From assembly GCA_903926465.1 (NCBI GenBank), contig CAIYJE010000161.1:1-64000 (forward strand): 64,000 nt of DNA, in the 5' to 3' direction. The DNA comes from an uncultured Planctomycetales bacterium. GTDB taxonomy: Bacteria > Planctomycetota > Planctomycetia > Isosphaerales > Isosphaeraceae. Of this stretch, positions 4,307 through 7,597 are shown piece by piece. The position numbers were made by a program, and so were the translations under genes. The notes beneath the pieces were generated by a model, which made no database searches, was not told the DNA's origin, and saw only the letters and a list, made by a program, of their open reading frames with translations. Numbering within the stretch: position 1 is the first letter of the stretch; each line of letters opens with the position of its first letter.

Positions 4307-5434
4307 ATGGGATGGTATGATTTTAATGGATATGGATACAGGCCGTACGTTCCGGTGGCGCAGCGGCGTGCCAATGCGCTCAGGGAAATTGCCAAGCGGT
4401 TCAAGAACGGTAAGAAGGCCTCTCCGGTGTCGATCGAGGGGCGGAAGATCACGAAGACCTTCTGGGGCAATGCTTGGTGCAAGAATCTGGAGAATTACAG
4501 CGATTATGCGAACCGGTTGCCACGCGGACAAACCTACGTGCGGAACGGCTCGGTGGTGCATCTGGAGATCAGCAAGGGGCAGATCAAGGCCCTGGTGAGC
4601 GGCTCTGAGTTGTACGAAGTTGAGATTGAGATCAGCACGCTTCCCAGAGATCCCTGGCAGGCACTCAAAGCGCAATCGGCCGGCAAAATTGGAACGCTGG
4701 TGGAGCTGCTCCAAGGCAAGCTATCCGGGTCGATTATGGAGCTGGTGACGGGTGAGCGATATGGGCTATTTCCCAAGCCCAAAGAGCTTCGCATGGATTG
4801 CAGTTGCCCCGATGGCGCGGGGATGTGTAAACACATTGCGGCGGTGATGTATGGTGTGGGGAGCCGGCTCGATACCAAGCCCGAACTGCTGTTTGAGCTT
4901 CGGGGAGTCGACCACCTGGAACTAATTGGACAGGCGATTCCCGTGTCGCCGGTGGGGGTGAGTGCAGGAGCCACAGACCGCAAGCATGCGCTAGCGGCCA
5001 GTGATCTGGGAGATATCTTCGGCATTGAACTGGGCGATGGATCGCCTGACCCTGAAGAATTGAAACCTGCCCGGGTTTCAAAGCGATCGCAGAAGCCGGC
5101 GGCCCGCAAGAAAGCCGCGGTGACCAAGAAATCCAGCGCCAAGCCAACTGCATCCAAAACGGCCACTAAGCAGAAGCCAGACAAGGCTTTGACTTCCGCC
5201 GCCGCCAAAACCGTCAGGCAGAAAACCACCCGCGCAACCGTGAAGCCGGAGCCTGCGGTAACAACTATTCCAGCAACCAAGGCTGCCAAGAAGCCGACCC
5301 GCGGAAAAACACAGCCGGTGGCGGAAGCTGCGGTTATGGCAACGGTGAAGCGGCCTGCATCAAAAACCGCCAAGCATCAGCCTACGGAATCAAAGCCGGG
5401 AGCTTCCGCCAAGAAGGGGGCGAAAAAGGGGTAG
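4307..5434 (+). CDS. SWIM zinc-finger protein with a lysine/alanine-rich histone H1-like tail
   Basis: The 375-residue product has a SWIM zinc finger near residues 163-180 (CSCPD...CKHI, the CxCx(n)CxH pattern), a domain that binds DNA or proteins and is typical of partners of SNF2 ATPases. The N-terminal 150 residues match the SWIM-protein lead-in (GWYDF...KTFWGNAWC). After about residue 258 it becomes a low-complexity tail dominated by Lys, Ala, Thr, Ser and Pro (KKAA and AKPT-type repeats), like eukaryotic histone H1 tails and bacterial H1-like proteins; this should bind DNA by charge. The gene starts at ATG after GAGGAGAG and follows the SNF2 gene closely, so an operon is likely. The stop is 8 bases from the stop of the converging glycosyltransferase. 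Function inferred: DNA-binding accessory of the SNF2 protein. Confidence 0.88.
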   Translation: MGWYDFNGYGYRPYVPVAQRRANALREIAKRFKNGKKASPVSIEGRKITKTFWGNAWCKNLENYSDYANRLPRGQTYVRNGSVVHLEISKGQIKALVSGSELYEVEIEISTLPRDPWQALKAQSAGKIGTLVELLQGKLSGSIMELVTGERYGLFPKPKELRMDCSCPDGAGMCKHIAAVMYGVGSRLDTKPELLFELRGVDHLELIGQAIPVSPVGVSAGATDRKHALAASDLGDIFGIELGDGSPDPEELKPARVSKRSQKPAARKKAAVTKKSSAKPTASKTATKQKPDKALTSAAAKTVRQKTTRATVKPEPAVTTIPATKAAKKPTRGKTQPVAEAAVMATVKRPASKTAKHQPTESKPGASAKKGAKKG

Positions 5435-5442
5435 TGTGCTCC

Positions 5443-6526
5443 TCAGCCATTCATCGGTTCTTTGGAGCGGCCCGCGACCAAGAGATTGTGATAGATGCTG
5501 GCCCTGGAATCCCAGCTATGATTCTGAATCATGTAGGCGATCGCGCGTTGCCGGCCCCACGGTCGTTCGGTGGCCTCTTGAATCAGATCGGCCACTTTTT
5601 CGTCGTTGCCGTACGGTGAAATCAGGCCCAGTTGCGCCTGTTCTATCAGGTAGTTGTTCGGCACGGAATCTTCGCTAACAACCGGCACTCCGGCCCGAAG
5701 GTAATAGTAGATCTTGCTGCTCTCGTTATGCTGAACTGCGCCTTGGGCCAGCACCAACCCGACATCCGCGAAGTGGTGATAATCCCAGACCTTGTCATTT
5801 TCGACCCCGCCCAGACAGGTGACAACGTCTGGGTCAATCTTGTCAAAGAGCCCCAGGCTCAATAAACATAAACGGATGCCCCGTTGTTTTAGCAACGCTC
5901 CTAGCGTGTTCAGACGCCGTTGCCAGATCAAATTGGTGTCACGCTGGGAATTCAGATAGAGGCTGCCAATGTAGACAGCAATTTTTTCAGGGTAGCATCG
6001 GAACGGGTTCTCGTTTGGTGCCGGAATCTTCCGGTCGACTCCGGTTGGAACCAGCAGGATCTCAGGCTTGTTGCCGTGTTCTTTGAGCCAGAGTTCCCGA
6101 CTTGGCTCGGTCAAAATTGAGACAAACCGGCTCTTCCGCGCAATCTCTTGTTGAATCTCGAACAGGTGCTGCCGTTCTTGCTTGAAGAAGTGAACACCTG
6201 GCGTATCATCGGTCGAGCCAACCACCGACCCGAGCTTGCTGATGATGAACGGGTGGTTGGCTCCGCCTTCTTCGGCCAGAGTTTCGAAGCCACGATGGAA
6301 GAGGGTTTTGACGACGTCGTAGTCGCCCCAGTTGACTTCGGAAAAAGGGACCTGGCGAACCCCCCCCGCTGGTCACGGGTTCCCTTTGTCTAGTGTTCAC
6401 CACCATGTCGACCTGGAATCCAAGCCTGGCCAGGGCTTCCGAGATGCGTATCCATCTCGTGAAGTTCATATGGATCGGTTTGAATTCGTCGAACACTTCC
6501 CGGGTATGGACTGTGGCAATCCGCAT
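5443..6526 (-). pseudogene. Glycosyltransferase (family 4-like) interrupted by a frameshift at a G8 tract
   Basis: Two minus-strand frames make one protein. The N-terminal part begins at ATG 6526 (MRIATVHTREVFDEF, with an FTRWIRISEALARLGFQVDMVV Rossmann start) and leaves frame at a run of eight C on the + strand (6360-6367, G8 in the gene). The rest is open in another frame from the tract down to the stop at 5443, with no internal stop: VPFSEVNWGDYDVVK, then EILLVPTGVD, IAVYIGSLY and a SKIYYYLRAGVPVVSEDSV donor-binding-like stretch. Removing one G gives exactly 360 residues. The fold looks like a GT-B glycosyltransferase with a GT4-like C-terminal half; substrate unknown. The break could be a sequencing error, a true pseudogene, or a phase-variable tract. 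An upstream ATG at 6550 is an alternative start. Confidence 0.8.
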
Positions 6527-6638
6527 GTTCACAATCCTGGAAAGTGCCATGAGAATCTGGAGCCGATCGGGACGTTCGTATTCGCCGGTTCGGGGCAACG
6601 ATGGACGGTCTGCGGAGGAATTTATGCCGGGTAACAGC

Positions 6639-6703: not shown

Positions 6704-7597
6704 TCAGTCTTCGGTTCCCAGGTGGTAGAAGACGTCGCCAAGGCCATCCACGATATCGCCGGCAATCATACCAATCACGCCCGACTGGTCGCGGGCCATA
6801 TCGCCGGCCAGGCCATGTGCATAGGTTCCCAGTACACAGGCATCGAATGGGGAAAGCTTCTGACCCAGAATGGCGGCAATCACGCCGGTCAGGCAATCGC
6901 CAGACCCGCCGGTGGCCATTCCCGGATTCCCAGAGCCGTTGACGTAGGCCTGGTGGCCATCGGTCACAATGGTGCCATGCCCCTTGAGCACAACGACCAG
7001 AGGCGTTTCGGTGTGGTTGGCCAGGCTGGCTGCAAGACTAGCCCGATTCGCCTGGACCTCTGCCACGGTTTTCTGGATCAGCCTTGAGAACTCCCCTGAG
7101 TGAGGAGTCAGAACGGTGGGCGCCTTACGCTTATTCAGAATGGAAATCTGAGATCCAAGGGCATTCAACGCGTCGGCATCCAGAACCAGGGGCACGGCCA
7201 CGTGTTCCACCAGCCAGCCAACCAGGCGATCCAGGCTGGCCGAGCGGCCGAGCCCTGGTCCAACCGCAACCACGTCGCTCTGGGCCACCAAGCGCTCAAG
7301 GTCGGCCTTGGCTCGCTCGAAATCGATCTGGCCATGATCGTCCTGGCTGAGCGGCCAGGTCATGTAAGACGGTTCAAAGGTTGCCACGGTGGGCTGAATT
7401 TCGGCCGGCGATGCCACGCGCACCAGCCCTGCGCCACTTCTAAGGGCCGCTGCTCCGGCCAGACCGGCCGCTCCGGCCATGCCTCGGCTTCCAGCAATGA
7501 TCAGTACCCGACCGTAATCCCCCTTGTGGGAATCTGCGGGGCGGGCTTTGAGCTTGGGGATGGTGGTGACAACGCGAAGTTCAGGAGCTGCGGCCAT
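6704..7597 (-). CDS. nnrD: ADP-dependent (S)-NAD(P)H-hydrate dehydratase
   Basis: NnrD repairs damaged NADHX and NADPHX by an ADP-driven dehydration; it has the ribokinase-like fold of the YjeF C-terminal domain. The 297-residue product shows the family's conserved stretches: KGDYGRVLIIAGS near residue 25-37, GAAALRSGAGLVRVA, VGPGLGR in the middle, VLTPHSGEFSRL, VVLKGHGTIV, and the active-site NGSGNPGMATGGSGDCLTG segment near 215-235 with the catalytic Asp. The epimerase partner (NnrE, YjeF N-domain) is not fused here and not seen nearby. The ATG at 7597 has an AAGAAGG ribosome binding site 5 bases upstream. It lies inside the end of larB (17-base overlap), so the two are translationally coupled. 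Confidence 0.95.
   Translation of the reverse strand: MAAAPELRVVTTIPKLKARPADSHKGDYGRVLIIAGSRGMAGAAGLAGAAALRSGAGLVRVASPAEIQPTVATFEPSYMTWPLSQDDHGQIDFERAKADLERLVAQSDVVAVGPGLGRSASLDRLVGWLVEHVAVPLVLDADALNALGSQISILNKRKAPTVLTPHSGEFSRLIQKTVAEVQANRASLAASLANHTETPLVVVLKGHGTIVTDGHQAYVNGSGNPGMATGGSGDCLTGVIAAILGQKLSPFDACVLGTYAHGLAGDMARDQSGVIGMIAGDIVDGLGDVFYHLGTED

Follow-up and report, generated by a model that had tools for sequence, protein, structure and literature searches.

A glycosyltransferase (GT) gene in the window, the whole 64,000-nucleotide stretch of DNA analysed here, changes reading frame at a run of eight G, and we tentatively regard it as a slow poly-G slippage switch in its OFF phase (probability about 0.42; our first choice). 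Two further genes of the same genome, encoding a type III Mod methyltransferase and a WbsX-GT4 protein and broken at runs of 14 and 13 G, respectively, look like true contingency loci and are a more interesting result than the window gene itself.

A glycosyltransferase gene in two reading frames

The first-pass annotation had described a GT gene whose N- and C-terminal parts lie in different frames that meet at a C8 of the forward strand (6360-6367), with no stop codon between this tract and position 5443. We find the run as described, and the window has no other C/G run of at least 8; the two frames were confirmed by frame reading and by homology across the join, and the C-terminal frame is open throughout. 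Specifically, the N-terminal protein, in the frame of the ATG at 6524-6526, starts with MRIATVHTREVF and ends with VTSGG, and its reading frame up to the tract is MRIATVHTREVFDEFKPIHMNFTRWIRISEALARLGFQVDMVVNTRQREPVTSGG. The gene is thereby split into a first portion of 53-55 codons and a remainder of ~306 codons in another frame, open from 6372 and ending with a stop codon at 5443-5445. From 6526 to 5443 there are 1084 nt, which minus one base make exactly 360 codons and a stop, so the arithmetic of the earlier claim that one G fewer restores exactly 360 residues holds.

The position of the frame change can be bounded from both sides. The TGA of the C-terminal frame lies 6 nt before the tract and bounds the change on the left within 6 nt; on the right, homology resumes within about 6 nt of the tract (RQVPF versus RIVPL). 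The frame change is confined to about 20 nt with the G8 included, a stretch that makes up about 2% of the gene and that a random single indel would seldom hit. Since these 20 nt hold the gene's only run longer than 6, the break points to slippage or a homopolymer read error, not to general decay. Reading the C-terminal frame to 5443 revealed no stop or frame change in the gene besides the one at the G8. A 260-residue piece restarting at the internal GTG is unlikely to be active, because the N-terminal quarter of the protein would be missing.

Table 1 Features of the GT gene and its neighbours (positions in the window).
Feature	Position	Strand	Remarks
N-terminal coding part of the GT	6368-6526	-	ATG at 6524-6526; residues 1-53 precede the tract; matches the beginning of the full-length query, E 3.5e-31; aligns with the intact paralogue and homologue L137
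G8 tract on the coding strand (C8 on +), site of the frame change	6360-6367	-	Sole run >6 in the gene
C-terminal open frame, 309 codons plus stop, tract included	5443-6372	-	ORF P0001; HMM coding segment 5448-6341; aligns with the paralogue and L137
TGA that closes the C-terminal frame shortly before the tract and limits the frame change on the left	6373-6375	-	Read from the sequence; first upstream stop of the C-terminal frame
Stop of the N-terminal frame, about 50 out-of-frame codons past the tract; as-sequenced product truncated at 106 aa	6206-6208	-	
GTG, possible restart of a 260-aa C-terminal piece (ORF 5443-6225); overlaps the N-frame stop	6223-6225	-	
AGGA, plausible ribosome-binding site, 8 nt before the ATG	6535-6538	-	Read from the sequence
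NAD(P)H-hydrate dehydratase-like gene, upstream neighbour	6704-7597	-	Intact
SWIM-type zinc-finger protein with Lys/Ala-rich tail, convergent neighbour	4307-5434	+	Intact

Identity and relatives of the glycosyltransferase

The GT4 label of the first-pass annotation is only loosely supported: Pfam GT1/GT4 models do match, but at 16.0-16.4 bits, against a cut-off of 26.4 for PF00534. The matches (PF00534, PF13692 and PF13439) cover the C-terminal nucleotide-sugar domain and the N-terminus, and all fall below their cut-offs. A PDB profile search also returned glucosyltransferases weakly, the best being glucosyltransferase 3 (E 0.011), and a single-sequence structure model of the C-terminal part has a mean pLDDT of 37. 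These Pfam matches are what the protein shares with GT4/GT-B glycosyltransferases; it differs from them in belonging to a rare subfamily and in its EX7E motif, whose usual second Glu is out of place in the alignment.

One paralogue (G000:C164:7054-8157; 367 aa, 42% identity), encoded elsewhere in this genome, is intact and runs in a single frame across the join. Clustered with it are other GTs, a sulfotransferase and a polysaccharide deacetylase, functions assigned from sequence and context, and the contig also carries DUF1501/PSD1-type genes. The only clear match outside the genome is homologue L137 (351 aa, 29% identity), from another class of the phylum and likewise intact in a single frame; a stretch of the form ExxKIYxYLRxGxP is conserved in the family. 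From the weak profile matches and the context of the paralogue, we call the window gene a glycosyltransferase of a rare GT-B-like subfamily.

The two intact relatives also bear on recoding, in which the ribosome would shift by +1 on GGG GGG G, or RNA polymerase would slip, so that the gene as it stands yields some full-length enzyme. A G run is a possible slippage site for either the ribosome or the polymerase, and the GeneTack survey (PMC3711429) counts programmed frameshifts as one natural cause of frame transitions of this kind. However, both the paralogue and L137 are single-frame genes without a run at this site, so the arrangement is not conserved, and no stimulatory element is known for the G8 here. 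We place recoding last and consider it highly improbable.

The GT is an accessory gene, as its family has a member in just one of 397 genomes of the class, namely its own. No close orthologue was found in pattern-based, non-exhaustive scans of species-genome contigs, nor among plasmids, 40 relatives, viral contigs, phage records or the genus, which is represented by one genome. Its surroundings, which contain an SNF2 helicase gene and what we take to be genes for a SWIM-type protein and an NAD(P)H-hydrate dehydratase, are not a surface-glycan locus, and the GT stands alone among housekeeping genes.

The gene shows no sign of long-standing decay

We compared the GT with its intact paralogue in a relative-rate test and found 25 versus 35 unique changes (chi2 1.67), indicating no acceleration. 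The C-terminal part has kept its coding statistics, and the gene has a GC3 of 0.66, like that of its neighbours. Neither further lesions nor faster evolution, the usual marks of a pseudogene, were seen: there is one frame change only. Long-standing decay is thus ruled out, the gene being otherwise intact and evolving no faster than its intact paralogue. If the gene is dead, it died recently, because it has a single lesion, retains its coding statistics and shows no acceleration.

A recent death is what our second choice proposes, namely that ordinary slippage introduced an indel into a tolerated run of G and irreversibly killed a dispensable GT, with decay still to follow. The gene is accessory and a paralogue remains, the G8 is short, and the genome encodes mismatch repair; with about 27 similar runs in genes, one natural indel would also be unremarkable. 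Against this, the event would have to be recent, as the 360 codons show no other damage, and the homopolymer frame breaks in the sequence examined occur only at G runs, the one C7 case being a gene boundary. We consider such a one-way null mutation rather unlikely, though less so than a read error.

C/G runs in the genome and the accuracy of the assembly

C/G runs of at least 8 number 1 in the window, where 7.7 are expected from dinucleotide shuffles, and 107 in the 6.89 Mb of the genome; therefore such runs are avoided in this genome. The G8 run by itself is not enriched and is no hallmark of a switch. For 98 listed tract positions and two contig-end runs (100 loci), we fetched ~3 kb of surrounding sequence and judged the frame on each side of the tracts by coding models trained on the genome itself. 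About 32 G/C runs of 8-10 lie in frame inside intact genes, as do about 80 homopolymers of 6-7, indicating that errors at such lengths are rare. Some 27 other G8/C8 runs are found in intact genes, several of the housekeeping type (UvrA, RNase E, ExbD); thus, a G8 is tolerated without being a switch.

These counts weigh on our third choice, a mistake in base calling or assembly at the G8 that would leave the real gene intact. The assembly is a draft of 207 contigs, some of which end in G runs of 21-35, so long G runs are difficult for this data set, and an error rate of 3% per tract would produce about one broken gene among 30-odd tracts. The rarity of errors implied by the in-frame G/C8-10 runs and 6-7-base homopolymers speaks against it, and pervasive homopolymer error is ruled out by the 30-odd other G8-G10 runs that lie in frame in genes. 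A read error confined to this tract seems to us doubtful. The first-pass annotation had left switch, recent pseudogene and sequencing error side by side; long-standing decay and pervasive homopolymer error now drop out, and the switch has gained support from the genes with G13 and G14 described below.

No homopolymer frame break outside G runs was found in the sequence examined. A C7 (L096) was rejected as a frame break, being a gene overlap or boundary, and candidates at L105 and L110 were rejected as neighbouring genes. The runs of 10 or more examined are nearly all intergenic or at gene edges, apart from one in-frame G10 and two that break frames (G13 and G14). The in-frame G10 lies in a beta-carotene 15,15'-dioxygenase gene (PF15461; G000:C55, L062:1502-1511), which a one-base slip would switch off. 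By length, C/G runs of 8, 9, 10, 11, 12, 13 and 14 number 54, 18, 5, 4, 4, 8 and 4, respectively; there is no smooth fall above 9 and a second hump at 13, mostly intergenic (e.g. L086, L097, L109, L115, L122 and L124). Several contigs of the genome end in or beside G/C runs of 10 to 35 (G000 C8:49409-49443, C63:1-21, C90:16868-16888 and C207:7-16); probably the assembly breaks at long G runs, or the contig-end runs are poly-G read artefacts.

Frame breaks at long G runs in WbsX-GT4 and type III methyltransferase genes

The genome has only two coding-sense G runs of 13-14 inside genes, and both break frames. A G13 at G000:C116:34788-34800 (L092:1488-1500, L166:6788-6800) interrupts a gene whose N-terminal part matches WbsX (PF14307, 3e-67) and whose C-terminal part matches GT4 (PF13692, 3e-23); the break falls inside the GT4 N-terminus, and homologues align without interruption across the join. 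A G14 on G000:C101 (L085:1499-1512) interrupts the Mod methyltransferase gene of a type III restriction-modification system, with 156 aa before and 463 aa after the run. The C-terminal part of Mod matches PF01555 (2e-29), and homologues with 60-67% identity pass through the join in one frame. The Mod gene follows a 256-aa gene at the position of the DUF4391 gene in a homologous system. Contig C101 is short (3,329 bases, whole in L167), and its membership in the genome rests on similar coding statistics.

WbsX-GT4-type and type III DNA methyltransferase genes are classic phase-variable classes. The G14 Mod gene looks like a phasevarion-type switch, as it shares the layout of phase-variable type III mod genes, whereas its lineage lies outside those usually studied; it is a companion gene, not the window gene. 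Simple repeats are carried by 17.4% of type III mod genes (PMC7394358).

At a G9 on G000:C64:502-510 (L067), 104 N-terminal codons and the remainder of a gene lie in different frames; its product is probably a secreted protein with repeats and carries the motif LEQRTLLS; this run may break a surface-type protein, a case without homologue support. When 30 intact genes with G/C8-10 runs were scanned with Pfam, none (0/30) was a GT or DNA methylase, nine of them having no Pfam name at that threshold. With the window gene left out, GTs or DNA methylases make up 2/3 of the broken genes against 0/30 of the intact ones (Fisher p about 0.006, on small numbers).

The slippage-switch reading of the window gene

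The reading of the window gene as a switch gains weight from the coding-sense runs of 13 and 14 G inside genes, since these break genes of the WbsX-GT4 and type III Mod kinds. Under this reading, slipped-strand mispairing at the G8 (codons 53-55 of 360) would make the tract one base longer or shorter. At a length of eight, the ribosome would run out of frame and stop after 106 residues, leaving no enzyme, and frame-restoring tract lengths would give the 360-residue protein. The tract would vary in the population, the change would reverse at a useful rate, and the enzyme would presumably modify a cell-surface glycan.

Several features of a contingency gene are found here. The homopolymer lies inside the coding sequence at the frame change, the gene is of a typical class (a GT by way of its paralogue in a glycan cluster, the Pfam support being weak), and other loci of the contingency type occur in the genome (the G13 WbsX-GT4 and G14 type III Mod genes). 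Mismatch repair by MutS slows slippage, and MutS1 is present in this genome. The Gly-Gly encoded by the tract is conserved neither in the paralogue nor in L137, which gives no hint that the tract has been maintained over long periods. The closest parallels are the poly-G LOS and capsule GTs of Neisseria and Campylobacter (lgtA-type), which share a GT gene, a G run within the coding sequence near the 5' end, and a frame that is one base out. Unlike those genes, which belong to host-adapted pathogens, the window gene lies outside a surface-glycan operon in a probably free-living, planctomycete-like host and is known here from one sequence. Its tract is also one base below the minimum length of G9 used in the Neisseria phasome survey (PMC5953494), and for this reason we stop short of classing the gene as an established poly-G phase-variable one. 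We read the host as planctomycete-like from its family content, namely the DUF1501/PSD1-type genes on C164 and the LEQRTLLS surface motif.

A small poly-G phasome, in which the type III methyltransferase (as a phasevarion), the WbsX-GT4 protein, the surface repeat protein and the window GT would switch independently by G-run slippage, is a possibility that we hold more loosely than the switch reading of the window gene. Homopolymer-slippage phase variation has been studied mostly in host-adapted pathogens. If the phasome is real, a probably free-living bacterium of this phylum switches its epigenetic state and surface glycans in a way known mainly from such pathogens, and poly-G switching of glycan and DNA-methylation genes in such an organism would suggest a role in escape from phages or predators. 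Our literature search, which left most subscription journals outside, returned nothing specific on such switching or on this gene set in Planctomycetota.

We also examined 69 loci in three complete relatives, where the pattern of GT and Mod genes broken at long G runs was not found and the runs are mostly in frame or intergenic. In one of these relatives (G023, L194:1506-1515), a transposase-like gene lies in two frames that meet at a G10, which may be the programmed frameshift of an insertion sequence.
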